Position numbers and translations under genes: made by a program. The notes below the pieces were generated by a model. The model was given only the letters and a program-made list of their open reading frames with translations, had not been told where the DNA came from and did no database searches. Below are positions 8,616-37,737 of a stretch of DNA of 37,737 bases, piece after piece; position 1 is the stretch's first letter, and every line of letters starts with the position of its first letter. Location of the stretch: positions 1-37,737 of the forward strand of contig JAEINW010000022.1 in the NCBI GenBank assembly GCA_016342715.1, written 5' to 3'. The stretch comes from Salinivirgaceae bacterium (GTDB taxonomy: Bacteria > Bacteroidota > Bacteroidia > Bacteroidales > SZUA-534).

Positions 8616-8742
8616 CTGTTTGATTTTTTTATTAATGAATCGGTCAAATAGCCTGCCCACCATAAATAACTTAGCGAAGCGTTCTAACTGGCTTACTAAT
8701 GATTATTGTGGTTTGTATGTAATTAACTGCATGGCTATTTCT
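8611..8742 (-). repeat. Dispersed repeat R, copy 1 (in front of alkaline phosphatase)
   Basis: About 130 bp similar, at roughly three quarters identity by eye, to 19986-20117. Shared blocks include TTCATCTGTTT at the gene end, AATCGGTCA, CATAAATAACTTAGC, AGCGTTCT and TATGGCTATTT-like ends. Both copies sit upstream of minus-strand genes, and this one includes the ATG of the alkaline phosphatase. It could be a mobile repeat or a shared leader/promoter. Confidence 0.75.
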
Positions 8743-19990: not shown

Positions 19991-20117
19991 CTGTTTATTT
20001 TTATTTTTTATTAAATCGGTCAGATGGAATACGCCATAAATAACTTAGCAAAGCGTTCTCACTGGCTTTGCCAGTAATCATTGCGGTTTGTATGCAATTT
20101 ATTGCTTATGGCTATTT
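19986..20117 (-). repeat. Dispersed repeat R, copy 2 (upstream of MATE gene)
   Basis: Partner of 8611-8742. It contains a perfect small hairpin, ACTGGC TTT GCCAGT, at 20061-20075, and its outer parts (CCATAAATAA and TTGCTTATGG) are inverted relative to each other, so the whole unit may fold. It lies upstream of the MATE gene on the same strand. Confidence 0.75.
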
Positions 20118-24734: not shown

Positions 24735-24957
24735 AAAGACGATTTTAGTTGCTTGCTTTTTTTATTTTCTAAATCAAATTTATACTACATTTACATTTCT
24801 ACCTAAACTTTGTGATGTACAGTACTAATTTTGGTATCTTCTATTGAATACTTGTGATTAACTACTGTATTTATTATTGATAAGTAACACAAACTTATAT
24901 TTCATGATAAAAATAAAAAACCTTATCTTTTTTGCTTTAAAAACTAAAACATGTAAC

Positions 24958-27900
24958 ATGACCATTTTAACACACTTAAAATCATTTTTTTTAATTGGAA
25001 TACTTTTAACATTATCTTTTGGAGAAGCACATACCAAAGAAAAATTAAAAACCGAAAACAAAGATACCTTAGTAAATTCATCTTTAGTTAGTGGGCTGAA
25101 ATTTAGAAGTATAGGCCCGGCATTTACCTCAGGGCGAATTGCTGACTTTGCCGTTAATCCAACAAATTATTCGGAATATTATGTAGCCGTAGCAAGCGGA
25201 AATATTTGGAAAACAACAAATAATGGAATAACATTTGAGCCTGTTTTTGATAATTACGGCTCCTATTCCATAGGTTGTTTAGCTATTGACCCCAAAAACA
25301 CTAACGTTGTGTGGGCGGGTACAGGCGAAAATAACCATCAACGCGCTTTAGGATATGGCGATGGTATTTACCTCACGGTTGACGGAGGAAAATCATGGAA
25401 GAATATGGGATTAAAAGAATCGCGCCATATTGGTATGATATTAATAGATGGAAGAAATTCAAATATAGTTTATGCTGCATGTGAAGGATCAACATGGGGA
25501 CCAGGAGGAGACCGAGGACTATTTAAAACCACTGATAAAGGTAAAACCTGGAATAAAGTTTTAACGATTTCAGAAAACACAGGTATAAATAATATTATTT
25601 GCGATCCAAGAAATCCTGATATATTATATGCTACCAGCGAACAACGTAGAAGACACGTGCATACCAAAATAGGTGGTGGACCGGAAAGTGCCATACACAA
25701 ATCGGAAGATGCTGGCAAAACATGGAAAAAATTAAAAGATGGGCTACCTGAAGAAGACATGGGAGGAATTGGCATAGCCATATCCCCACAAAATCCCGAT
25801 GTGATTTATGCCATAATTGAAGCAGCAAATAATGCAGGTGGCTTTTTTCGCTCAACAGATAGAGGCGAATCGTGGGAAAAGATGAGCGATCATTCATCTA
25901 GTGGACAATACTATAATGAGATTTATTGCGACCCCGTTGATTTTGATAAGGTGTATTCCGTTGAAACTTTTTCACAGCTCACAAAAGATGGAGGAAAAAC
26001 CTGGACAGCCTTGAGTACAAAAGATCGTCATGTAGACGACCATGCTTTATGGATTAACCCAACAAATAATAAACATCTAATTATAGGTGGAGATGGTGGT
26101 GCTTATATTACATATGATGGCGGTGAAAACTGGAGACAAGTTTCTAACCTTTCGGTAACTCAGTTCTATCGTGTGGCTGTTGATAATGAAAAGCCATTTT
26201 ATAACGTTTATGGAGGAACACAAGACAATGCTACTTTAGGTGGCCCATCAAGAAATTTAAGCAGTTTTGGAGTAACTTCAGGCGAATGGATTGTAACTGT
26301 TTTTGGCGATGGATTTTGGTCTCAGGTTGATCCAACAAATCCTAACATTGTTTATTCTGAATGGCAATATGGAAATGTGGTTCGCTACGATAAAAAAAGT
26401 GGAGAAAAAGTATTCATTAAACCACGCGAAAGAAAAGATGAATTAAGCTACAAATGGAACTGGAATTCACCAATAATAATTAGTCACCACTCTCCTACTC
26501 GACTGTACATGGCAGCTAACAAAGTATTCCGAAGCGATGACAGAGGTGATAACTGGAAAGTGATTTCGGATGATTTAACTACAAAAATTGACAGAAATAC
26601 CTGGCCTGTGATGGGTAAATACTGGAGTGTTGATGCCGTGGTAAAAGATGTGTCAACCTCACAATTTGGAACCATTGTTTCAATGGATGAATCACCCAAA
26701 CAAGAAGATTTACTTTATGTTGGAACCGATGATGGTTTGATTCAAATTACTGAAAATGCAGGTCAAAACTGGACCAAAATTAATAAATTCCCGGGAGTAC
26801 CTGAATACACTTACGTGAGTGATATTTATGCCTCACAATTTGACGCAAATACAGTTTATGCATCATTTGACAATATGAAAAGAGATGATTTTAAACCTTA
26901 CATTTTAAAAAGTAGCGACAAAGGAAAAAGCTGGGTATCCATTGCAGCAAACCTCCCTGAAAATGGAACGGTACATACTATTCAACAAGACCATATAAAT
27001 CCTAAATTGCTTTTTGTTGGAACTGAATTTGGAATATTTTTTACCATTAACGAAGGAAAAGATTGGGTTCAGATGAAATCAGGAATACCTACTATAGCTG
27101 TGCGAGACATTGCCATTCAAAAAGATGAAAGCGATTTGGTGTTGGCAACTTTTGGCCGTGGTTTTTATATTTTAGATGACTATTCTTCTTTAAGAGATTT
27201 AACCGAAGAATTAGCGAACAAACCTTCTTATTTATTTCCTATAAAAGATGCCTTGATTTACATGGAGACAAGCAAAATTTATGGTCAAGGAGCCACTTAT
27301 TTTGGGGCAAAAAATCCAGAGTACGGTGCAAATTTTTCTTTCTTTTTAAAAGAAGTTCCCAAAACAAAAAAGGAAATTCGTCATGAAAAGGAAAAAGAAC
27401 TATTTAAAGCAAGTAAACCCATTCCTCAACCAAGTGTTGAAGAACTTCAAGCAGAAGAAAATGAAATTGATCCTTATTTAATAGTGACCATAAAGGATTC
27501 AGAAAACAGTATTATTCGCACTTTAATTAACAAACCAGCTGAAGGAATTCAACGAATAAATTGGGATTTAAAATATAACAACCCTAAGGTTATTAATGAT
27601 GTAAAAGAATTTAATCCTTTTATGAAAAAAGAGGGTGGAGTTTATGTACTACCTGGAAGTTATTCAGTTGAAATAGCCATGGTTCATAACGGAATTTCAA
27701 CACCATTGGCTGGCACTAAAAAATTTGAAGTTAAACCTTTAAACAATACAACTATTCCAGCTAATAATAGAGCAGAAATGGTGGCTTTCCAAAAGCAAGT
27801 ATCAGAATATGCAAAAAGCATGAATGGAGCTGTATCGCTGCTTGAAAACCTTCAGGAAGAGGCTTTAGCTATTAAACAAACTGCTTTAACTTTAACAGGA

Positions 27901-28242
27901 GGATCTGCTGATTTGATGCAAAAAATCACACAACTTGAAAAACAGTTAAGCGATATAGAATTCAAATTTTATGGAACTGAGCCTAAAGCAAGTACTGAAG
28001 AAGTTCCTCCAGCAAAATACCCTTTGTATAACAGGTTAGATGATTTGATTTATTCACAAATGACCAGTACAACAAATATTACTGGAACTGCTAAAATGTC
28101 GTTCGAAATATTGAAAGAGAAATTTCCTCCAGTACTTTCTGAATTAAAAGAAATAACTGAAAAAACACTTCCAGAAATAAGGAAAATATTGGACGATTTG
28201 AAAGCTCCTTATACTCCTTACCGAGTGCCAAAATTAGATTAA
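24958..28242 (+). CDS. Secreted BNR/sortilin-like beta-propeller protein
   Basis: A 1094-residue exported protein from the chosen start. The ATG at 24958 gives a standard signal peptide (MTILTHLKSFFLIGILLTLSFGEAHT); the open frame reaches back to 24877 but with a poor leader. It has many Asp-box/BNR units of the form SxDxGxTW: GKSWKNM, GKTWNKV, GKTWKKL, GESWEKM, GKTWTAL, GENWRQV, GDNWKVI, GQNWTKI, GKSWVSI and GKDWVQM. These should build one or two large propellers like those of the VPS10/sortilin-related WD40/YVTN/BNR family. The last part (about 830-1094) has a beta-sandwich and a helical tail. Proteins of this family are common in Bacteroidota and are often annotated as glycosyl hydrolases without proof. 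A strong terminator follows. Confidence 0.88.
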   Translation: MTILTHLKSFFLIGILLTLSFGEAHTKEKLKTENKDTLVNSSLVSGLKFRSIGPAFTSGRIADFAVNPTNYSEYYVAVASGNIWKTTNNGITFEPVFDNYGSYSIGCLAIDPKNTNVVWAGTGENNHQRALGYGDGIYLTVDGGKSWKNMGLKESRHIGMILIDGRNSNIVYAACEGSTWGPGGDRGLFKTTDKGKTWNKVLTISENTGINNIICDPRNPDILYATSEQRRRHVHTKIGGGPESAIHKSEDAGKTWKKLKDGLPEEDMGGIGIAISPQNPDVIYAIIEAANNAGGFFRSTDRGESWEKMSDHSSSGQYYNEIYCDPVDFDKVYSVETFSQLTKDGGKTWTALSTKDRHVDDHALWINPTNNKHLIIGGDGGAYITYDGGENWRQVSNLSVTQFYRVAVDNEKPFYNVYGGTQDNATLGGPSRNLSSFGVTSGEWIVTVFGDGFWSQVDPTNPNIVYSEWQYGNVVRYDKKSGEKVFIKPRERKDELSYKWNWNSPIIISHHSPTRLYMAANKVFRSDDRGDNWKVISDDLTTKIDRNTWPVMGKYWSVDAVVKDVSTSQFGTIVSMDESPKQEDLLYVGTDDGLIQITENAGQNWTKINKFPGVPEYTYVSDIYASQFDANTVYASFDNMKRDDFKPYILKSSDKGKSWVSIAANLPENGTVHTIQQDHINPKLLFVGTEFGIFFTINEGKDWVQMKSGIPTIAVRDIAIQKDESDLVLATFGRGFYILDDYSSLRDLTEELANKPSYLFPIKDALIYMETSKIYGQGATYFGAKNPEYGANFSFFLKEVPKTKKEIRHEKEKELFKASKPIPQPSVEELQAEENEIDPYLIVTIKDSENSIIRTLINKPAEGIQRINWDLKYNNPKVINDVKEFNPFMKKEGGVYVLPGSYSVEIAMVHNGISTPLAGTKKFEVKPLNNTTIPANNRAEMVAFQKQVSEYAKSMNGAVSLLENLQEEALAIKQTALTLTGGSADLMQKITQLEKQLSDIEFKFYGTEPKASTEEVPPAKYPLYNRLDDLIYSQMTSTTNITGTAKMSFEILKEKFPPVLSELKEITEKTLPEIRKILDDLKAPYTPYRVPKLD

Positions 28243-28264
28243 TTACCTACAATAATATTTATAC

Positions 28265-28296
28265 AAAAAAGGTTGGCTTATGTGCCAACCTTTTTT
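28265..28296 (+). terminator. Terminator after the BNR-propeller gene
   Basis: AAAAAAGGTTGGC and GCCAACCTTTTTT form a perfect stem of 12 or more pairs around TTATGT. This marks the left edge of the accessory region, which is read in the opposite direction. Confidence 0.93.
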
Positions 28297-28419
28297 ATTA
28301 TCATTTAATCCGTTTACTACTTGTTCAGTTTTAATATATCTATTTCCTAATTTTATATTTAAGGCAATTAAAATGAGTAAAAGCAGCGGAGAATTTGAAA
28401 GCATGTTAGCCTTTATTTT

Positions 28420-28611
28420 TTATTTTTCAGGTCGTTTTCTTGCGTCTTTTATTAGAAAGGTAATTGAGAGCACAATGCCAATGAAGTAAACAAATGCTAG
28501 TGCTGGGTTCTCAAATTTTAGATTTTCAAAGTCGAATTCCTTAAACAAAGCTACACCTATAATGACTGCTGGAATTAACAAAACAATTGATAGTCCTTTT
28601 TTCTTTTCCAT
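28420..28611 (-). CDS. Small membrane protein, two helices
   Basis: A 63-residue protein with two hydrophobic stretches (about 7-24 and 39-54) split by an acidic turn (FKEFDFENLKFEN), and with basic residues at both ends (MEKKK and KDARKRPEK). That layout is normal for a small inner-membrane protein. No family is recognised. It follows the DUF6090 gene after 35 bases and is probably its operon partner. Confidence 0.6.
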   Translation of the reverse strand: MEKKKGLSIVLLIPAVIIGVALFKEFDFENLKFENPALAFVYFIGIVLSITFLIKDARKRPEK

Positions 28612-28646
28612 ATTATGTATTATAAAAGTTTTCTTTTTAGCTAATC

Positions 28647-29327
28647 TTATATTTCTTTCTTAATTTCATTTCGTATTCTTTCAGTTTTACTAATAACTGC
28701 AGAATAACAGTTTAAATTAAAATCCCTTTTATTTTGTATCTTCCAAAGATAAGTTAATAGTATTTTTTCTTCTTTCTCCGAAACTTTAAGTGGCGTATTT
28801 ATTCCGATTATAGTTTTATTCTTGTCTAAAATAAAATTATCAGCAATTATACAGTTAATTTTTTCGAAATAGTTTTTTTGAAATTGTGATTCATAATGCT
28901 CTTCTTCAAGCTTTCTTAAAATTGAGTAATCATATTCGTAAAGAGAAATAATTTCAGAGCGCAGCGAATCATCTTCAATTAATTCTAACCCTTTTGATTT
29001 TAAAGCGTCGTAACCTGATGTGTTTTGAATAGAAATAAAATCACGAGTTAGGTTGAAATAATGAATCATAACTGAGTCTGTAGATTCTAATTTGTTAGAT
29101 AATATATTTCTAAAATAGACTATAGCCTTAATTCCAGTTTTATGACCTGATTCATTCGCTCGTAAGTCTTCTAAGTCTTTATTTAGGCCGTTATATATTT
29201 CTGTTAAAATTTTATTTTCAGCATTATTATCTCGTCTATTGTCATTCCAGTTATTCAACGCAAATGCTGAAATAACGGCAATGAAAAGTGTTAAGAATTC
29301 AAAACTATATTTTTTCCAATTTTTCAT
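28647..29327 (-). CDS. DUF6090-like membrane-anchored protein
   Basis: A 226-residue protein with one N-terminal membrane helix (FEFLTLFIAVISAFALNNWN) followed by RRDNNAENKILTEIYNGLNKDLEDL. This opening is the hallmark of the DUF6090 family in Bacteroidota, whose function is unknown. The rest is helical and likely faces the periplasm. An AGGAG at 29336-29340 lies 8 bases before the second ATG (29327) but only 2 before the first (29333), so I chose 29327. The gene and the 63-residue protein form the first unit of the repeat-separated accessory region. Confidence 0.75.
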   Translation of the reverse strand: MKNWKKYSFEFLTLFIAVISAFALNNWNDNRRDNNAENKILTEIYNGLNKDLEDLRANESGHKTGIKAIVYFRNILSNKLESTDSVMIHYFNLTRDFISIQNTSGYDALKSKGLELIEDDSLRSEIISLYEYDYSILRKLEEEHYESQFQKNYFEKINCIIADNFILDKNKTIIGINTPLKVSEKEEKILLTYLWKIQNKRDFNLNCYSAVISKTERIRNEIKKEI

Positions 29328-29335
29328 ATTCATTT

Positions 29336-29340
29336 CTCCT
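29336..29340 (-). promoter_or_regulatory. Shine-Dalgarno sequence that decides the DUF6090 start
   Basis: AGGAG, unusual in this AT-rich Bacteroidota setting where most genes lack one. Spacing favours the ATG at 29327 over 29333. Confidence 0.6.
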
Positions 29341-29432
29341 GCTGCTTTTTATTGACAGTATCTTAAATTTAGTACTGACTTATAAACTATTAAAATAACG
29401 GTATTCAAAGTCTTGTGAGGCTTTATGTACTG

Positions 29433-29697
29433 TCATAGTATATTAATTTTACTCGCAAATATAAAAATATTTATTTGCGCTCGTGAATCTAAAAGTTGAA
29501 TAATAATCCCTTCCTAAAGAACCGGTAGGCAAGGTAGCAAATAATTTTCTATGAACTATTTCTCACAGCCTGCCCCGATTCCATCGAGGAACATTTTTAA
29601 AATTAAAGTATTTGTTAGTAATGATTAATTTGCGGTAAATCCAAGTACAAGCGAGTTTTTAGACTATACATGAGGCCGTATTTTTTTATATTTTGTT
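29433..29697 (-). repeat. Repeat B, copy 1
   Basis: About 265 bp, alignable end to end with 31586-31849 at roughly three quarters identity by eye, including 29 identical bases (29553-29581 against 31704-31732). It contains a CCCCGA/TCGAGG hairpin, a GGTAGGCAAGGTAGCA block, and outer segments that are inverted relative to each other. It fills the gap between the channel gene and DUF6090. Confidence 0.88.
29456..29463 (-). promoter_or_regulatory. Probable -7 promoter element inside repeat B copy 1
   Basis: TATATTTG on the minus strand, matching TAnnTTTG and pointing toward the DUF6090 gene 129 bases downstream. The same octamer is kept in copy 2. Confidence 0.4.
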
Positions 29698-29721
29698 GAA
29701 CCATGTTTTTATTTTGCATTT

Positions 29722-31509
29722 TTAATTCTGTAACATTTGACTTATTAGTGAAACACTAAAAATACTCAAAAGAAACCAGCCTAAAAACCCTTCGAGTATG
29801 GTAATATATCTTGAAACTCCCTTTACAGGAATGGCTCCAAAACCAAGTGTAGAAAAAGCATTAACGCTTAGTGTTGTGGAATTGAGCGCACGAATAAATA
29901 CTAGGCAAATCATATAAATTACAATTGAAAAGACAACAGTTAGACCTACAAATACTTTGCGCACAGGTTTAAGATCTATCCAACGACCTTGCAGCACTTC
30001 TGTTCGTCGGTAAATAAAGGTTAATATTTTATGTTTAATAATTGAAACCAGGTATAAGGGCTTACCCAGCAGAATAATAAAAGCAGGAATGTCAAGCTTG
30101 CTCTCTGCCATTTCTTTTTTATAAGCGGCAAAAGTTTTAAAATCCTCCTTGTAGTTCTCTGTATAAAAATCTTCCAATCGTTGCTCTGAGCGGAAATATT
30201 GCATTATTTTCCGATGCTGTTTAATCAGAAATGAACGGTTTATGCCATCCCAATCGCTATAAAAAAAGAAATATACAGCGGCGAAAATAAGAATGGTCCA
30301 CATTGATATGATCAATGATTGTACCGGATTAGTCCCGTATTGTGAAAAATATTTTAGAAAGAGGTTAAAGCGCCAATTGAACCATTTATGAATATTTGGA
30401 TTTTGTTGGTATAAATGGTGATACCTTCTGGTCTCCATATCTTTCATTTGTTTATAACAAGCGTTGGCAGATTCCATATCGCCCTGGGTTCTGTACATCG
30501 AAAAAAACTTTCGATAGGAGCTGTTCAGCTCATTAAAAAGGTCAACATCCGAAATTAGGGTATCTGTTTTATTGGTATAGGGTGCTTGTTCATAAGTCGT
30601 ATAATATCCAAGTCCCACCGAATCTAATTGGCTCCAATTAAAAGAAGTATTGTTTTTGGGAAAATTTAAACTATTAATTCCAAGCGGTAGCTTAAACTTA
30701 CATTTCTTAACTGTAAAGTTTTCTTTTATTGAACAATTATTAAAGTTCACAATACTGTTGGAAAAATCGATCCCTTGAATGCTAATAACATCATATTTCC
30801 CACCAATAAAAGATATGATTGGTATCACTTCAGTTGGCAATATTTTGCAATTGGACAAAATAAATGCATTTATCTTTTTTTCATTCTGACTAATCCTGAA
30901 AAGATACTGATAAGTTTGATTTTCTTTTTCAAATCCGTAACGTTGTCTAGTTTGTGCAATCTTATGGTCGGTATAGAGCGAACAATTCCTGAATGATAAA
31001 AGATTAATTTGTAATTCAAGGATGACAGTTCTCTGCAGTATAGAACAATACCAAAATTCTATTATTCCCAAATCAGAATGAAGAAAGTCCAGCCCTTGCT
31101 TAAAGGTGCAATTATAAAAAATAAGTTGGGCAGCTCCCTCACACCAATTAAAAGTGATATTATTCTGAAAAATTATATTTCTGACTTGACAGGTTTTGTT
31201 CTTCGGTAATTTGCAATTTTTAATTACAATTGTTGGAAATATAGTTTTTTCTCTTTTTTTATCCTTTTCTGAAGGCTTGATGTATCTGGGGTGCATAGGA
31301 GAATACAAAGAATCTTTACTTTCATCATAAAATATTTCGGTGTCTACTAACCGATATTCCTTGTCTTTGCATTTCTCCATTTCCTCAATCCATTCGCTTA
31401 TGGATATTTTTCTTTTGTACTTATTCTGAGAAAACAAGTGAGAAGAAAAGAAAAGAGTACTTAACAGAATTATAAAGAGAATTTTTTTTGCCTTGGTAAT
31501 TTTATTCAT
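29722..31509 (-). CDS. Beta-helix/pentapeptide-like protein fused to an ion-channel pore
   Basis: A 595-residue protein from the start at 31509, which gives MNKITKAKKILFIILLSTLFFSSHLFSQ as a signal or anchor segment; the longer frame to 31539 adds a non-conserved leader. Residues about 90-290 carry repeated NC(K/S/T) units (IIFQNNITF, LIFYNCTF, LSFRNCSLY, FILSNCKI, VNFNNCSI, KKCKF), as in a pentapeptide-like right-handed beta-helix. A helical linker (YRKFFSMYRTQGDMESANACYKQMKDMETRRY) leads to a membrane part. This has helices near 395-415, 523-545 and 567-590, and a pore-loop motif STLGFGAIP that resembles a K+ channel selectivity filter (TVGYG). Family members are annotated as pentapeptide-repeat or potassium channel proteins. 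It is bracketed by repeat B copies. Confidence 0.75.
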   Translation of the reverse strand: MNKITKAKKILFIILLSTLFFSSHLFSQNKYKRKISISEWIEEMEKCKDKEYRLVDTEIFYDESKDSLYSPMHPRYIKPSEKDKKREKTIFPTIVIKNCKLPKNKTCQVRNIIFQNNITFNWCEGAAQLIFYNCTFKQGLDFLHSDLGIIEFWYCSILQRTVILELQINLLSFRNCSLYTDHKIAQTRQRYGFEKENQTYQYLFRISQNEKKINAFILSNCKILPTEVIPIISFIGGKYDVISIQGIDFSNSIVNFNNCSIKENFTVKKCKFKLPLGINSLNFPKNNTSFNWSQLDSVGLGYYTTYEQAPYTNKTDTLISDVDLFNELNSSYRKFFSMYRTQGDMESANACYKQMKDMETRRYHHLYQQNPNIHKWFNWRFNLFLKYFSQYGTNPVQSLIISMWTILIFAAVYFFFYSDWDGINRSFLIKQHRKIMQYFRSEQRLEDFYTENYKEDFKTFAAYKKEMAESKLDIPAFIILLGKPLYLVSIIKHKILTFIYRRTEVLQGRWIDLKPVRKVFVGLTVVFSIVIYMICLVFIRALNSTTLSVNAFSTLGFGAIPVKGVSRYITILEGFLGWFLLSIFSVSLISQMLQN

Positions 31510-31585
31510 AGGTTTTATTTTATTGGCTTTAACGACCAATATAAAAAACAGTACGGATTTAATGACTTTTTCTTTATCGGTTCAT

Positions 31586-31849
31586 TCATAGTAAATTAAT
31601 TTTACTCGCAAATATAATAATATTTTAAAGCGCTCGTGAGCTAAAGGTTGAACGCTAATCCATGCCTGGATCGGTAGGCAAGGTAGCAATAATTTTTCCT
31701 TGTGAACTATTTCTCACAGCCTGCCCCGATTCACTCGGGGAACATTTTTGTAAATCAATTATGCTTGTGAGTAAAAATTAATTTGCGCTAAATCCAAGTA
31801 GACGTGACATTGCAGACTACTAATTACCCGTATTTTTTATATTTTATTG
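31586..31849 (-). repeat. Repeat B, copy 2
   Basis: Partner of 29433-29697, in the same orientation. The hairpin here is perfect (CCCCGA TTCAC TCGGGG, about 31724-31740), and CTCACAGC and GCTTGTGAG can also pair. It lies between DUF3307 and the channel gene, so the channel gene is flanked by direct repeats about 2.15 kb apart. Confidence 0.88.
31609..31616 (-). promoter_or_regulatory. Probable -7 promoter element inside repeat B copy 2
   Basis: TATATTTG on the minus strand, 99 bases before the chosen start of the channel gene. It suggests that the repeat supplies the promoter of the next gene. Confidence 0.4.
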
Positions 31850-31940
31850 TATGCTGGACTTTATCAATATGTTTTTTCTAAAATTATAAATAGATGTATC
31901 GGTATTTTCACTAATAAGAGCACTTTATAAGTTAATTCAC

Positions 31941-32525
31941 TTATATTAAAGAAATGAGTATCCCTAATATTGTAGCTATTCCAAAACTCAACAATGTCCC
32001 TACCAATACATACTCATTTTTCTTATTGTCTCTAAATCTTAATATTGATTTAGCTGCGATTATTAATCCGACTGCACTATATTGACCAACGAGTATCAGA
32101 GCTAAAACCAAGAATCTTTCCATCAAACCAATTAATTTACCAGCATTAGGTATATCCTTATTATCATCTTTAGAGCCTTCAATTGTAGGAATTGATATTT
32201 CTAAATAATTGAAAATGTTTTTAATGAGAATATTGGATGGTTTTGCACAAAAGATAAATCCAGCAGCAATTGCTATGTACTTAATAGGAATATCATATAA
32301 GAAATCCACACCACAATGATAATAATATGTGAAAGATATTATTATCATTAAAGTCAAATGAATTATTTGGTCTGTAAAAAAATAGAGACTTTCTTTTCTT
32401 CTAAATTTTAATTGAAAGTAACTTTTTAAAACATCCGTTGTGAAATGAAGTAAAGTCAATAAAATTGCACATTTTAAAAATCCATAATCAAATGATAGTA
32501 AATATGAAAACATAAAAATTACCAT
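31941..32525 (-). CDS. DUF3307 membrane protein, 5' end altered
   Basis: A 194-residue product from the first ATG, with several membrane helices. The C-terminal half (AGKLIGLMERFLVLALILVGQYSAVGLIIAAKSILRF, then EYVLVGTLLSFGIATILGILI) is the diagnostic DUF3307 pattern; its function is unknown. The family's conserved N-terminal motif (H/N-L-L-G-DF-x-x-Q) lies upstream of this ATG in the same frame: NLLGDFIFQPHSW is encoded at about 32575-32613. The frame stays open to 32672, where a TAG stops it, with no ATG, GTG or TTG between. The natural start therefore seems lost where the repeat at 32642-32695 joins the gene. It may be a recent pseudogene, or translation may begin internally. Confidence 0.7.
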   Translation of the reverse strand: MVIFMFSYLLSFDYGFLKCAILLTLLHFTTDVLKSYFQLKFRRKESLYFFTDQIIHLTLMIIISFTYYYHCGVDFLYDIPIKYIAIAAGFIFCAKPSNILIKNIFNYLEISIPTIEGSKDDNKDIPNAGKLIGLMERFLVLALILVGQYSAVGLIIAAKSILRFRDNKKNEYVLVGTLLSFGIATILGILISLI

Positions 32526-32641
32526 TGTATGCCAAAGATGATACCATGTAATAGCTTTGGTTTTTTTCTTAAAAGTCCAGCTATGAGGTTGAAAAATAAA
32601 ATCGCCTAGTAAATTACATAAAATGTAACTGTTTTTAAATA

Positions 32642-32695
32642 GTAGCCGATTGCGAGCTCTAAACTCACAAAACTACTAATGCTGAGACGGGCTAC
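32642..32695. repeat. Inverted-repeat-bounded junction (repeat C) at the DUF3307 5' end
   Basis: GTAGCC at 32642-32647 and GGCTAC at 32690-32695 bound a 54-bp unit. The unit runs into the DUF3307 reading frame and contains the TAG that closes it. It separates the rloB stop (32755) from DUF3307. Confidence 0.45.
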
Positions 32696-32754
32696 AGACC
32701 TTGATATTATTGACATATGGCAATTATTTATAATGCGTTGTGACCACCAGTACT

Positions 32755-33495
32755 TTATTCATATTTTTTCAATTCCTTAACTAACTTGAATACAGTAGTT
32801 GAAGATTCTTCAGCACCTGGGTTAGCATGGTCTAATCTATTATAAATTTTTTCGGCACGTTTAATAGCAATATCACACCTTGAGAATTTCTCTCCATCTC
32901 TATCTACATATACAATCTCATCAAGTAAATTAAAAAAATCCTGCTCTATCTTTTTTGAGCCTTCATAATCATAATGTATACCCAATTTATGAATGTAAGA
33001 ATTGATTTTATCACCGTAAACGCTTCTTTGAATTGCACCTCCTTGATGGTCTTCAAAATGTAAAATTAACCAGTATTCAAACGCTTGATTAGAATATGCG
33101 ATTCTAAACTTTAACTTCTTAGCGAGCAAAATTGCATTATTAAAATTTTCAAGTTGTTTTGGATTGTCTGGCTTAGGGTCTGCATCAAAGACACACCAAA
33201 TTTGGTCATAATCATTTTACTCTGATAGCTTCTTAGCTCTTTCCACTAGTGATAGTGTATTACGCCCCTCGCCAAAAGAATCTATTGTTAATGTTGAAAG
33301 TCTGAACTTATTAAAATATGACGGTTCCGTATTTCGCCCTTCACAATAAATAAGAATTGTTGGTTTTTCTTCTAATTCAGGAGCTTTACGTTCAAGAATT
33401 ACCTCACCTCTTCTGCGTGCTTTTATTTCAGCTAATCTGAGCTTTTGTTCTTCAGCTTTCTGTTTTTGGATTAGCTTTTTGTTTTGCATTTTCAT
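32755..33495 (-). pseudogene. rloB: RloB/AbiLii-like TOPRIM-type protein, interrupted by an in-frame TAA
   Basis: The frame reads 92 codons, a TAA at 33217-33219, then 153 more codons in the same phase to the true stop at 32755. Joined, this is a complete RloB-family protein of about 246 residues. Before the stop: a basic coiled N-terminus and the TOPRIM-like Glu motif LIYCEGRNTEPSYF (E52, G53). After it: DQIWCVFDADPKPDNP, with the DxD pair at 104 and 106, then the conserved NQAFEYWLILHFEDH. The stop separates the two metal-binding motifs, so the short product should be inactive. No ATG restarts the frame soon after. One base change (from AAA, GAA or CAA) or a sequencing error would explain it. 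It follows rloA by 12 bases. Confidence 0.85.
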
Positions 33496-33507
33496 ACTTC
33501 CGTAGGC

Positions 33508-34839
33508 TTATTGAATAATGTTATCAAAATCACCTAAAAATGGAACTGCTCCATACTTTCCCCTAATATAATTGTTTTCAAATGCTTCATTTTTTCTAAC
33601 TTCATCAGTTTTAAAATCAGCTAAAGAATATAATTTAGAAGCACCAAGTGTATCTTTTTTAGCAAACCAAATTTGGTCTCTACGGAATAATCCTGAACTT
33701 AATAAATTAGTATCATGAGAATTAAAAACTAACTGAGCGTTATTAGGGTTTAATTTTTTCGAATTAAAAATTGAAATAATCTTGCAAACTAAGTTAGGAT
33801 GAATCTTTGAGTCTAATTCATCAACAAACAATACTCCTCCAATATCAATAATTTTAATAATTTGACCGATAAGAGCAAAATACTTTCTTGTACCTGATGA
33901 TTCATCTTCAAGTAATGAAAACTCAACATCCTTCAAGTATTTTCCTTCTTCGTCGAATTGTTTGTGGTACATAATGACATCAGAAAATTTTTCTTGATTC
34001 TCATCCTTCATTGTTTTTTTTATGTATGAATTTAGACCTTTAATTGCATCTTTAAGTTCCTTTGGAACATCATCCATACTGTCAATATTCAGGTTTTCAA
34101 ACGTATGCTTTTTTAATTTAAAATCATCAATACCAATATCCGCATTTTGCAAAAAAGTTAAGATGCGCTTTTTTTGTTTGCTATCTTTTGAAAGTAGCAT
34201 TGTGTCATTTAGGTATCCTTCTTCTTTAAGCCCTGAGATAACCTTTAGTTCTTTAAACGAATATAAAATAGTTTCTGCTAATAAATCATTAAACTGAGCA
34301 AGCACAGAAATTAGTAAGGCATTATCTCTAACTAATTTTTCCTTAACTAATGTATCAAGTTTTGTAAACTTCTTTGTGTTATGAATGATTTCTTGATAAT
34401 CTCTGTAGAAAAGCTCATTTTCCTTTGTTTTGGTTTTATGATAAAGCCACTCAGCCACAACTTTATCTTTATCTACTTCAAAACCGTATCTATATAAATT
34501 ATTTTCCAGAAAGAAAACAATCTCAAACTCACTGCCTTGCTCAATTGATTCAGCATTAAGACGAAAAGGCTCAATTGCAATTGGGTCACCTTTTTGAGTA
34601 TCTTTTGAAGACATTAAGACAAAATGTCTCATGAAAATTAATGCTTCAATAAACTTACTTTTCCCTCCAGCATTAGCACCATAAATTACAGCACTTTTAA
34701 GAATTCGATAGTTGAACTTTTCGTTCAAAATAATATTTTCGACTTCTCTAGTATCTTTATCGTAGTTAGAAGCCAATAGGCTTAAGGTTGATTTTTCCTT
34801 AAAAGACCTATAATTAGCAACCGAAAATTGTAAAATCAT
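33508..34839 (-). CDS. rloA: RloA/AbiLi-like AAA ATPase
   Basis: A 443-residue OLD/ABC-type ATPase (AAA_15/AAA_21). It opens ILQFSVANYRSFKEKSTLSLLAS, with Walker A GANAGGKS at residues 54-61 (Gly58 where most relatives have Ser). The signature-like LLEDESSGTRKYF lies near 310-322 and Walker B GGVLFVDELDSKIHPN near 337-352. A switch motif NSHDTNLL follows near 383-390. With the RloB partner it forms a two-gene ATPase-nuclease defence unit, first described beside type I restriction loci and related to lactococcal AbiL. The ATPase is thought to sense infection and license the TOPRIM-like partner. The gene looks intact while its partner is broken. Repeat A lies upstream. Confidence 0.85.
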   Translation of the reverse strand: MILQFSVANYRSFKEKSTLSLLASNYDKDTREVENIILNEKFNYRILKSAVIYGANAGGKSKFIEALIFMRHFVLMSSKDTQKGDPIAIEPFRLNAESIEQGSEFEIVFFLENNLYRYGFEVDKDKVVAEWLYHKTKTKENELFYRDYQEIIHNTKKFTKLDTLVKEKLVRDNALLISVLAQFNDLLAETILYSFKELKVISGLKEEGYLNDTMLLSKDSKQKKRILTFLQNADIGIDDFKLKKHTFENLNIDSMDDVPKELKDAIKGLNSYIKKTMKDENQEKFSDVIMYHKQFDEEGKYLKDVEFSLLEDESSGTRKYFALIGQIIKIIDIGGVLFVDELDSKIHPNLVCKIISIFNSKKLNPNNAQLVFNSHDTNLLSSGLFRRDQIWFAKKDTLGASKLYSLADFKTDEVRKNEAFENNYIRGKYGAVPFLGDFDNIIQ

Positions 34840-34867
34840 AATATATGCATTTATTGCAATGTTTCTG

Positions 34868-34875
34868 CAAAAATA
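34868..34875 (-). promoter_or_regulatory. Probable -7 promoter element of rloAB
   Basis: TATTTTTG on the minus strand fits TAnnTTTG and lies 28 bases before the rloA ATG. No clear -33 TTG was found. Confidence 0.45.
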
Positions 34876-34947
34876 CGCAATTAATTTAATAAATGATGTT
34901 GATATTTTGTTTTTATTGCGAGAACTATGCGTCTCTTAGTATTGGTG

Positions 34948-35143
34948 CTAACTTACTAATAGAATCACCTTATTACTTCTATCCAACCAAAAAAATGCAT
35001 AAAAGTTGTTTTATCCATTCAAAATTTAAGCATGATTTTTATTTTTGAACCTTTTAAAACCCTTTACTAAAGTTTGACATTTTAAAACTAAACATAATAC
35101 TTTACAATAACAACCGTTAGGGCCTTTATATAATCGGTAAGCC
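34948..35143 (-). repeat. Repeat A, copy 1
   Basis: 196 bases that match 37542-37737 with four substitutions and no gaps (about 98%, counted by hand). The left edge is sharp at CTAAC, which reads GTTAG on the minus strand. It sits between the methyltransferase gene and rloA. A 39-codon frame (AYRLYKGPNGCYCKVLC...) stays open in both copies. Confidence 0.95.
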
Positions 35144-35398
35144 ATTAGCTCCCCGCTGCCCCGCTGCGCTGCCGTACGAGCTTGCGAGCTCAACGAAGTT
35201 AATATCCATGTTAAATATTTTAGGTTGGTGTAATATTTATTGCATGGATATTTCATATTATTATATAATGTTTATGTTGTGGTGTATTGTTTACAACATT
35301 TAGCTAAACGACAGTGCGGATTTAACAACTTGTAAGTATCCTTTTTGGCGGTTAGCAAATTTATTTATTTGTCGAACACAATTTACATAATTTAATTT
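35144..35398. other. Spacer with GC-rich patch and small hairpins
   Basis: No gene. It contains a GC-rich patch near 35152-35195 with GAGCT TGCG AGCTC, an ACAGTGCGGATTTAA block (35321-35335) that recurs as ACAGTACGGATTTAA near 31549-31563 upstream of the channel gene, and part of the structured sequence that leads into repeat B copy 3. The second copy of the upstream sequence would lie beyond the window. Confidence 0.5.
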
Positions 35399-35484
35399 CG
35401 GTGAGTAAATTAAATTGCGGTAAATTAAAGTACGAGCGAAGTTTCAAGCTAAACATTACCCGTATTTTTTTTAGCTTTTGTTAG
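35399..35484 (-). repeat. Repeat B, partial copy 3, overlapping the methyltransferase 3' end
   Basis: About 85 bp similar to the right parts of copies 1 and 2 (GTGAGTAAA, AATTGCGGTAAAT, TACCCGTATTTTTT). It begins inside the last codons of the methyltransferase gene at GTTAGGC (35480-35486) and contains a perfect AATTTAATTT/AAATTAAATT hairpin just beyond its left edge. Confidence 0.7.
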
Positions 35485-36679
35485 GCTCAGTAATTCCTAG
35501 TTTTATTTCTTCAATTACTAATTCCTGTGATTTAATTATTTTTATATCTGAGTTATATTTAAATAATCTATCTTCTCCATTCTCAGGTCTAGTTTGAATA
35601 ATGATTCTTAAAAAATACCCCTTCTTTTTTGTAGCTTTTTCAAGTTTTTCAATGCAATCGGAAATAGTTTCAATAGAAGATTGAATTTTTACAGGAACAG
35701 GTTTATCCCGGTAATTTTCCATAAGGAAACCATCAATTCCTGAGTTTCTTTGAACAGGGACAGCATCAATACTTTTTAAAATATTTAATTCTTTTTCGTT
35801 TTTTTGTATGTAGTCTGATTTTCCATTCTTTAAAAGTGCTGATTCAGAGATTATCATTTCATCAATTCGCTTAACTGCAAGATGCACAGCGTCAATCGAA
35901 ACGTCAATCCCTATGAAATTTCTACCAAGATGTTTAGCTGATACACATGTTGTCCCGCTACCACAAAATGGGTCAAGAACTAAATCTCCTTCATCCGAGC
36001 AAATTTTTAATATTTGATTTATTAATAGAACAGGTTTTTGAGTAGGATAACCAACTCTTTCTTTTGCTTTAGGATTTAAATAAGGAATTTCCCACAAATC
36101 AGATAATGGAACTCCCTTTTTCGCTTTACCTAAAACAACTTCTCCATCCTTATCTCTTTTATATATTGATTTTCCTGAAGTTGTTCTCACTCTGTCTTGA
36201 AGAATTTGGTCAACGTTTGTAGTTGCTGAATAATCTGTAAGTATTTTGTTAAATTTAAATTCTTCTGTTTTAGAATAAAAGTATATGTTTTGGTGTGAAT
36301 TTAAAAGACCTTTTTTCGAATTTGACCATCTTTTATATGACCAAATAATTTCACTTTGAAATTGTTTTTCACCAAAAACTTTATCCAAAACTAATCTTAA
36401 GTGGTGTGATGCTGCTTTATCACAATGCAAAAAAACGCTACCTGAGTTTTTTAATATTCGTTTGCATTCTTTCAAACAGGCTTCAATAAGATTTAAATAA
36501 TCATTTAAAGAATTCCAACTGTCGCTAAATTCATACTTTTTATCTTCACCTCTGGTTACAAGAGAATGAGATTTTTGAGTAAAAAATGGAGGGTCAAAAT
36601 AAACCAAATCAACAGAAAAGCTCTCCTGCTCTTTTAATCTTTCTACACAATTTCCGTGATATATTTTATTAATTTCCAT
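35471..36679 (-). CDS. Type II DNA methyltransferase, beta class (probably N6-adenine)
   Basis: 402 residues from the ATG at 36679, one base after the endonuclease stop; the ATG at 36703 would add eight residues and overlap the endonuclease. The catalytic motif DPPF (29-32, in VDLVYFDPPFF) comes first and the SAM motif LDPFCGSGTT (235-244) after it, the beta-class order. DPPF favours adenine N6 methylation. LWEIPYLNPKAKERVGYPTQKP precedes the SAM motif as usual. Residues 285-402 form an extension with GIDGFL (314-319) and VPVKIQSS (328-335), like a degenerate restriction-type core. It protects the genome from the adjacent endonuclease. The final codons carry GCCTAAC, which is part of the following repeat. 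Confidence 0.9.
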   Translation of the reverse strand: MEINKIYHGNCVERLKEQESFSVDLVYFDPPFFTQKSHSLVTRGEDKKYEFSDSWNSLNDYLNLIEACLKECKRILKNSGSVFLHCDKAASHHLRLVLDKVFGEKQFQSEIIWSYKRWSNSKKGLLNSHQNIYFYSKTEEFKFNKILTDYSATTNVDQILQDRVRTTSGKSIYKRDKDGEVVLGKAKKGVPLSDLWEIPYLNPKAKERVGYPTQKPVLLINQILKICSDEGDLVLDPFCGSGTTCVSAKHLGRNFIGIDVSIDAVHLAVKRIDEMIISESALLKNGKSDYIQKNEKELNILKSIDAVPVQRNSGIDGFLMENYRDKPVPVKIQSSIETISDCIEKLEKATKKKGYFLRIIIQTRPENGEDRLFKYNSDIKIIKSQELVIEEIKLGITEPNKS

Positions 36680-36680
36680 G

Positions 36681-37460
36681 TTATGCGTCTCTATCGTCTG
36701 CAATTTTTGTTAGTATTTCCTTTAAATCAAATCCTGTATAGGCTGTTAGAAAATCCCAAGCTTCATCTCCACCATAATATTCCCCGCCAACTCCTGCGTA
36801 AATAGTTTTTAAGGTTTCTTGAATTCTCTTGGCTTGTTCTCTTTGTGGATAATAGAACATAACTCTTATTGGTTTATAGCCATGACTTTTAATTGCCTTT
36901 ACTCTGGTATGCTCTTTAGTTATATGGTCGCCATCTGTTGTTGCATCTCTCCATTTTATTTCAATTGCATTGCCTTCGTCAAGAAAATCTATTTCAAAAG
37001 TTTTAGGTCTTGCTCCTTGATTATTTTCAACAAGAGTTTTACCGCCATTCAAATTTTTAAATTGAAGACACAATGAAGCTGCTTCTTCAAGGAAAGACCC
37101 CGCATATTTGTATAAGAATCGTCCTGTATTTTGGTATTCATCAATCAGACGACCTTCTTCAGTTGGAATTCCTAAAACTCTATAAATCAAATAATGTGAG
37201 TTGTCATCCAAAAGCATCTCTTCTTTTCTGGCTTCTATTTTTTCTCCAAGATTTTGTGCATATAATTCTGCTAACTCTTCAATTTTTAATGTAAGTAAAG
37301 GAAGTGGGGCACCTGCTTCTATCGCTTGTCGAATTTCATTATTGCCATATTCTTGGGCTTCCTCCATCATTATATTCTTTGCTTTATTTTTTGTCTCAAT
37401 GCCAATTAACTTGCAGTAATCAACAAGTTGTTTTTTATTTAAGCTTTCAATTTTTCTCAT
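36681..37460 (-). CDS. Type II restriction endonuclease, ApaLI-like
   Basis: A 259-residue endonuclease. Asp158 (FEIDFLDEG) and Glu167-Ile-Lys169 (AIEIKW) form a PD-(D/E)xK core. It is followed by RDATTDGDHITKEHTRVKAI and HGYKPIRVMFYYPQREQAKRI, which match my memory of the ApaLI-type family; ApaLI cuts GTGCAC. The N-terminal 140 residues are helical. The gene precedes its methyltransferase with one base between stop and ATG, so both come from one mRNA. No controller (C) protein gene is visible. The whole unit is flanked by direct copies of repeat A. The specificity is inferred from family and not shown by the sequence. Confidence 0.8.
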   Translation of the reverse strand: MRKIESLNKKQLVDYCKLIGIETKNKAKNIMMEEAQEYGNNEIRQAIEAGAPLPLLTLKIEELAELYAQNLGEKIEARKEEMLLDDNSHYLIYRVLGIPTEEGRLIDEYQNTGRFLYKYAGSFLEEAASLCLQFKNLNGGKTLVENNQGARPKTFEIDFLDEGNAIEIKWRDATTDGDHITKEHTRVKAIKSHGYKPIRVMFYYPQREQAKRIQETLKTIYAGVGGEYYGGDEAWDFLTAYTGFDLKEILTKIADDRDA

Positions 37461-37541
37461 TAATTAAGTTTAAAGTTTTTTGTAAAAATACTATTAATAT
37501 TATAATCTAATCTAGGAATATTGTGCGTTCTATTATTGAGC

Positions 37542-37737
37542 CTAACTTACTAATAGAATCACCTTATTACTTCTATCCAACCAAAAAAATGCATAAAAGT
37601 TGTTCTATCCATTCAAATTTTAAGCATGATTTTTATTTTTGAACCTTTTAAAATCCTTTGCTAAAGTTTGACATTTTAAAACTAAACATAATACTTTACA
37701 ATAACAACCGTTAGGGCCTTTATATAATCGGTAAGCC
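37542..37737 (-). repeat. Repeat A, copy 2 (runs off the window)
   Basis: 98% identical to 34948-35143 in the same orientation. The left edge is again CTAAC, preceded by GC to make GCCTAAC at 37540-37546. The repeat continues past the window end, so its true length is not known. Confidence 0.95.

Follow-up and report, generated by a model that had tools for sequence, protein, structure and literature searches.

An integron-like cassette array in a Salinivirgaceae bacterium and a candidate integrase outside the IntI clade

Introduction

Why should accessory genes of a single orientation alternate with long noncoding repeats where no integrase is in sight? The question is raised by the 28.4-37.7 kb block of a 37,737-nucleotide contig of a Salinivirgaceae bacterium (JAEINW010000022.1, assembly GCA_016342715.1). 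The whole stretch, hereafter the window, is one entire contig (C353) in an assembly of 5.5 Mb and 358 contigs. Integrons are the chief known bacterial device for stockpiling and shuffling genes, and the ability to use folded single-stranded attC sites is generally ascribed to the IntI family of recombinases, by virtue of an added domain. From comparison of sequences, the block appears to be the distal portion of an integron-type cassette array carried on the chromosome (probability about 0.8), for which a tyrosine recombinase of the family represented on another contig, C322, is the inferred integrase. The best reading of the system is as an integron by anatomy and behavior, run by a non-IntI integrase. 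This outcome supports the original prediction, made from the letters of the window alone, that a Bacteroidota cassette system might use long folded repeats as recombination sites.

Repeats as attC-like sites

Positions 1 to ~28 kb of the window are ordinary chromosome. Between 37737 and 28405 every gene listed lies on the minus strand, with spacers of 150-550 nt between genes, so that the block of same-orientation accessory genes stands as first described. The alternation of gene and repeat in that block is beyond chance, because the 5' ends of repeat B abut same-strand stop codons and because the end words of the cassettes, considered below, find better matches upstream. Repeat B, present in the window at 29420-29705 and 31586-31849, has 35 matches on ~25 contigs of the genome, often paired 2-3 kb apart; its surroundings were studied on 20 contigs carrying copies, and ~30 of the matches are attC 5' halves as judged by a profile hidden Markov model. 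About 30 copies of the repeat lie on some 22 contigs other than the window. At nearly every copy the 5' end lies a few bases from the same-strand upstream stop codon, and the 3' end precedes the next gene. Location at unit edges and fixed orientation thus hold genome-wide, which is the relation between repeats and gene units that a cassette system had been predicted to display.

The B-type sites measure 146-335 nt and are predicted to fold into long hairpins with paired ends. Similarity among them ends at GTT(A/G) and, at the opposite end, at AAC, and they comprise two subtypes, TAACACATGCTTATAAAAAATACGG with CCGTACTTTTAATAGC..GTTA and CAACAAAATATAAAAAAATACGG with CCGTACTGTTTTTTATATCGGTCGTTA, between which the 5' and 3' arms vary in step. 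Imperfect inverted repeats, AAC/GTT ends and a conserved structure on a variable sequence, the features by which attC sites are recognized, are all found here. Repeat A has two copies in the window (34937-35143 and 37531-37737, 96% identical); beyond it, neither the genome, in which there is one 35-nt partial match, nor 148 relatives yielded a full-length copy. Both repeat A and the spacer that precedes the DUF3307 gene belong to sequence families other than B. The long repeats that had been sorted into at least three families are better described as attC sites of several sequence families. The unit edge, which had been placed at the outer edge of each spacer, is moved to the GTT/AAC inside it.

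A search for the B-type core pattern across the genome collection returned nine single matches, mostly due to chance; one, in a metagenome-assembled genome of Bacteroidetes bacterium isolate Glo_2 (L088), resembles a real B-type half site. There the attC 5' half runs straight into the apparent C-terminal end of pheS (L088:1040-1260), and this junction is either a chimera or the product of a cassette end that landed in a gene remnant. Some B sites (window 29433-29486 and 31586-31639) carry TAnnTTTG, a Bacteroidota promoter-like motif, near their 3' part, and the sites might therefore also supply promoters to downstream cassettes.

Complementary cassette ends

If the units were circles inserted by recombination, the two ends of each should be complementary, and the ends of neighbors need not match. 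Twenty-five cassette-end words were better matched in the 3 kb upstream than in the 3 kb downstream (mean score 9.9 vs 7.9, Wilcoxon p = 1.6e-4), and the better matches sit at GTTR just 5' of the upstream gene, even at sites of another family. With boundaries set automatically, several of them wrongly, the same test had for that reason given a weak result (permutation p 0.007), and the 3'-word test was not significant overall (p 0.23), probably owing to wrong boundaries and some degraded sites. Complementary ends private to each unit are what circular cassettes would carry.

The ends share a signature in which the first 10 bases are complementary, position 11 holds a conserved A/G mismatch and 3-4 further bases pair again. 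It was counted in cassettes chosen by their first nine bases only. Among first cassettes behind an integrase of the C322 type (n=32), position 10 pairs in half and position 11 in a single case (1/32). In 23 of the 32, position 11 is A at the 5' end and G in the complement of the 3' end; positions 12-14 pair again in 24-27. The arrays of the window's genome, the restriction-modification cassette included, have A/G at position 11 in 7/11 and pairing at positions 12-14 in 22/33. Since window and integrase sit on different contigs, this signature is the strongest link of the window to the integrase family.

Movement of single units

Cassettes are duplicated and moved as units, and the breakpoints fall at the GTT of the sites; variation of single units with defined edges, put forward at the outset as a mark of such a system, was thus found. 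In one genome (G440) a 640-nt unit is tandemly duplicated at 100% identity, with the identity overshooting the unit by 1 nt on the left and 3 nt on the right, and another cassette stands at the attI position and again 16 kb away (99.8% over 932 nt) between unlike flanks, the switch occurring at GTT. Two further genomes, G290 and G325, have the same first cassette behind integrases that are just ~40-60% identical; their identity stays at 0.3-0.4 up to the G of GTT, rises there to 1.0 and drops past the next GTTAG. The cassette for a 605-residue protein in the window is also present in a genome of another family (G107), with 84% DNA identity over 1843 nt, bounded by cassette edges. That copy is without B sites and adjoins another canonical cassette. 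For the homologue of RE_ApaLI in G496, matching ends were sought nearby and not found.

A candidate integrase and its family

The observation that no integrase is visible holds for the window and fails for the genome, which encodes a candidate on C322 with an attI-like site and a cassette directly behind it; the search for an integrase outside the window, proposed with the original prediction, was to this extent productive. When the genome was searched with an IntI model, one true IntI (on contig C173, 470 bits) and weaker matches were obtained, the protein of C322 among the latter. This is a 368-residue tyrosine recombinase with a core-binding domain, a catalytic domain and an extra N-terminal part. 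The order on C322, all on the same strand, is integrase, TATATACAAAT|GTTATGGGC, two genes, ...GCCCATAAC, and a long hairpin site. The attI-like site, TATATACAAAT|GTT, lies ~90 nt 3' of the integrase gene, and the ends of the first cassette are GTTATGGGC...GCCCATAAC. The hairpin site matches the B-type profile of the genome with 20.8 bits (E 4.7e-7) and the 35.4-kb site of the window by blastn (E 2.7e-4).

Several observations set the C322 protein apart from IntI. It scores 185.5 bits against the TIGR02249 IntI model, whose cut-off is 265, and lies under the cut-off of every NCBIfam model that it matches. It also lacks the IntI-specific insert: in an alignment, ~38 residues that the IntI of C173 and of Kovacikia both have are missing from four members of the family. 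In a tree built from 37 sequences, only 3 of them IntI and 3 Xer, the three IntI form their own clade (100/100) on a long stem, with the family outside it; Xer proteins fall outside both IntI and the family, and the family branch is separate from the genome's own Xer proteins (100/100), while a sister relation of IntI and the family is not resolved by the tree. The AlphaFold model of the C322 protein has a predicted local distance difference test score (pLDDT) of 84, and Foldseek gives XerA (5hxy) as the best match, with IntI4 (2a3v) close behind.

Most family members carry an extra ~80 N-terminal residues (L094:796-1035; strands and helices, pLDDT ~85-90) with a conserved K...W...W and zero Pfam matches; this part might contact the hairpin or an arm site. 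The other tyrosine recombinases of the genome are Xer proteins (C177, C339), an orphan of 289 residues (C153) and a C-terminal fragment beside an attC array (C122), at loci labelled L078, L080, L076 and L056:6022-6234.

The C322 type has homologues in 50 of 149 genomes from the order, as a rule in single copy, and in 98 of 297 genomes sampled across the phylum; for IntI the count within the order is 3 of 198. Draft contigs break within 2.5 kb behind the integrase in 23/37 cases and in front of it in 4/37, the last bases of one contig being ...ATGTT. In relatives, as on C322, a site lies beside the integrase with the first cassette inserted at GTT; the attI sequence motif is clear only among close homologues. 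The complete genome G332 has seven single-gene cassettes in tandem, the first of them 44 nt behind the integrase. Each has matched ends of its own, and the attC gaps between them measure 115-120 nt and show the expected fold. Arrays of ~15-20 cassettes are present in G440 and G082. Shuffled sequences gave chains of at most two and 44 chained pairs, vs 248 observed. Only shuffles are a valid control for such chains; the opposite strand is not, because reverse complementation leaves the pair pattern unchanged. In another complete genome (G317), a ~1.9 kb element is repeated in copies 98-99.9% identical within two regions (L176, L177) behind two integrase copies.

The cassettes of the window

The contig ends within a copy of repeat A, the attC-like site A1 (37540-37737, minus strand, as are all array features described here), which is a direct repeat with site A2 and whose GTT at 37546 is complementary to the AAC at 35480. 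At its GTTAGGC edge, A1 forms the left boundary of the restriction-modification cassette (35480-37546), which was delimited by protein matches and complementary ends and spans GTTAGGCTCAATAAT (37546) to ATTACTGAGCCTAAC (35480). Its end pair is GTTAGGCTCA...TGAGCCTAAC, in which GTTAGGCTCA A TAAT stands against a complement of GTTAGGCTCA G TAAT. The cassette contains an ApaLI-like restriction endonuclease gene (36681-37460) and an N6/N4 DNA methylase gene (35471-36703), the stop of which overlaps the next attC site. This site (35303-35490, 188 nt), of the B kind, reads CTGAGCCTAAC...GTCGTTTAGC, has a 5' profile match of 72.8 bits (E 5e-21) and can be aligned with the C322 site as well as with the other sites of the genome; its 5' half is represented by the piece at 35401-35482. 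It is followed by a short unit (34946-35309) without an evident gene, which holds the attC-like A2 (repeat 34937-35143); the right edge is GTTAGCACC at 34952, and the 5' edge of A2 is tentative.

The rloAB cassette (32737-34952) extends from GCACCAATACT to AGTACTGGTG, with ends GTTAGCACCAATACT / ...AGTACTGGTGGTCACAAC, and carries a RloA/AbiLi-type (AbiL/RloA-type) ATPase gene (33508-34839) and a RloB gene (32755-33495). The latter is split by an in-frame TAA at 33217-33219, and the Abi/RloAB-type defence cassette is therefore probably inactive in this assembly, unless the TAA is a sequencing error. A putative attC-like spacer of a fourth sequence family (32585-32737), which sits between complementary cassette ends, leads to the DUF3307 cassette (31847-32585; ends GCTGGACTTT / AAAGTCCAGC), whose membrane protein gene (31941-32525) was assigned by a protein-family match. 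Site B2 (31525-31858, 334 nt) matches the profiles in both halves (68.4 and 62.5 bits) and has the fold. Then come the cassette of the 605-residue membrane protein (29695-31533; open reading frame 29722-31539, likely start near 31508) and site B1 (29372-29705, 334 nt), with a 5'-half profile match of 66.2 bits, the fold and a degenerate 3' end. The last cassette of the array (28405-29378), with an R''-like AAGGCTAAC at 28405-28413 and ends that are not demonstrably complementary, holds genes for a 228-residue protein (28647-29333) and a 63-residue membrane protein (28420-28611). The labels DUF6090 and channel, given to two proteins of the block at first reading, were not confirmed, as Pfam has zero matches for either.

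A terminator-like hairpin (28260-28305, assigned to neither strand), recognized by a self-complementary match and its fold, lies between the array and an opposite-strand chromosomal gene (24877-28242). The chromosomal part also has a 35-nt direct repeat (94%) at 8660-8694 and 20034-20068, unrelated to the array. One protein has a type IX secretion system sorting domain, which assigns the window to Bacteroidota. Neither an Rfam match nor a tRNA was found anywhere in the window.

Proposed mechanism and alternatives

Under an integron-type mechanism, each unit would be an accessory gene or operon with one half of a long attC-like hairpin at its end, the other half being part of the next unit. A tyrosine recombinase of the C322 family would cut the folded attC sites at GTT, single cassettes would be excised as circles, and these circles would be inserted at the attI-like TATATACAAAT|GTT behind the integrase gene, on the same strand. 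The sequences show that unit edges fall at GTT, private complementary ends carry the position-11 mismatch, units are duplicated and transferred one at a time, and the integrase heads arrays in complete relatives. We infer that the C322-type enzyme is the catalyst, that its substrate is a folded single strand, that the intermediate is circular and that the array of the window connects with C322.

Several points weigh on the other side. Catalysis by the C322-type enzyme is a prediction from sequence. C322 is a contig of 4.2 kb that is not joined to the window, and its site is only modestly similar to the B-type sites. In a coarse shuffle test p <= 0.05 was reached by only 15/33 first cassettes, the ends of several window cassettes (that of the 605-residue protein and the last) are degraded, and the 5' edge of repeat A is tentative. 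The same assembly, moreover, has the IntI of C173 with its own short attC-like site, and this enzyme could in principle act on the sites of the window. It is nevertheless unlikely that the window is an attC cluster served by that classical IntI. Although C173 encodes a true IntI, above the cut-off of 265 bits, together with a short hairpin site and a GyrI-like cassette whose bounds are GTTATAAC/TTATAAC, that hairpin site is ~60 nt long and GC-rich, whereas those of the array genome are AT-rich and of 146-335 nt, and C173 is without any B-type site. Its tetranucleotide deviation, 0.227 vs 0.09-0.19, is the highest of the contigs compared, and it may be a foreign replicon or a binning error. The rarity of IntI in the order (just 3/198 genomes) also contrasts with the presence of the same end signature behind C322-type integrases in many genomes. 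The C173 locus itself (L075, 1-9755) is a canonical IntI integron with short attC-like sites and GyrI-like and DUF262-like genes; it adjoins opposite-strand phage-like genes and may be a plasmid, a phage region or a binning error.

Homologous recombination among dispersed repeats could shuffle units without a dedicated recombinase, and the sites are indeed long repeats, of which repeat A has two near-identical neighboring copies. We consider this very improbable: breakpoints were found at one base, in GTT, between otherwise unlike sites; the orientation of the sites is fixed; and homologous recombination would not predict private complementary ends or a position-11 mismatch. Least credible is an ordinary genomic island, in which the repeats would be plain terminators, untranslated regions or the ends of dead mobile elements. 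The sites do come after stop codons, and some have the promoter-like motif near their 3' part, but their 5' and 3' arms co-vary, cassette ends are matched across 0.5-4 kb, and units move singly, with the edges of transfer at the sites.

Relation to known systems

The definition of an integron rests on the IntI-specific domain (PMC9668308, PMC2426708, PMC9024848), an additional domain located around patch III (PMC9668308, PMC2426708). By that definition the array system is not a member and is rather a variant, though it works like one. With the sedentary chromosomal integron (IntI, attI, attC) it shares tandem one-direction cassettes, attC hairpins ending in GTTR, an attI-like insertion point adjoining the integrase gene, unit-wise gain and duplication, and long arrays of mostly unknown genes. 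It differs in that its integrase lacks the IntI-specific domain and scores under the IntI cut-off, in that the integrase gene is co-oriented with the cassettes, in the length of the attC sites in the window's genome, and in cassette ends complementary over ~14 nt with a fixed position-11 mismatch; the IntI yardsticks (L075, L092) gave no clear cassette chain. The window, with attC-like sites and cassettes and without intI, also resembles a cluster of attC sites lacking an integron integrase (CALIN). Unlike a CALIN, however, it belongs to a genome that encodes a platform integrase of another recombinase lineage, with an attI-like site and a first cassette; the assembly breaks inside the array and the platform is on a separate contig. 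XerA, XerCD and XerH resemble the C322 protein in fold and sequence (NF040815, 201.8 bits), but the C322-type family has an extra N-terminal part, heads cassette arrays and branches separately from the genome's Xer.

A literature search that left preprints and most subscription journals outside its reach found no report of non-IntI integrons in Bacteroidota. We lean toward the view that about one in three Bacteroidota possesses a second type of integron, with a tyrosine recombinase lineage that does without the supposedly necessary IntI-specific domain and with matched cassette ends of ~14 nt. Standard searches would miss its integrase because they require that domain, and such arrays may have been overlooked across the whole phylum. 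If true, a phylum-wide cassette system without the IntI domain changes where integrons are to be sought, and offers an independent or ancestral solution to single-strand recombination for comparison. It would also open a large set of cassettes, represented here by restriction-modification and Abi-type defence, that surveys requiring the IntI domain have left uncounted.

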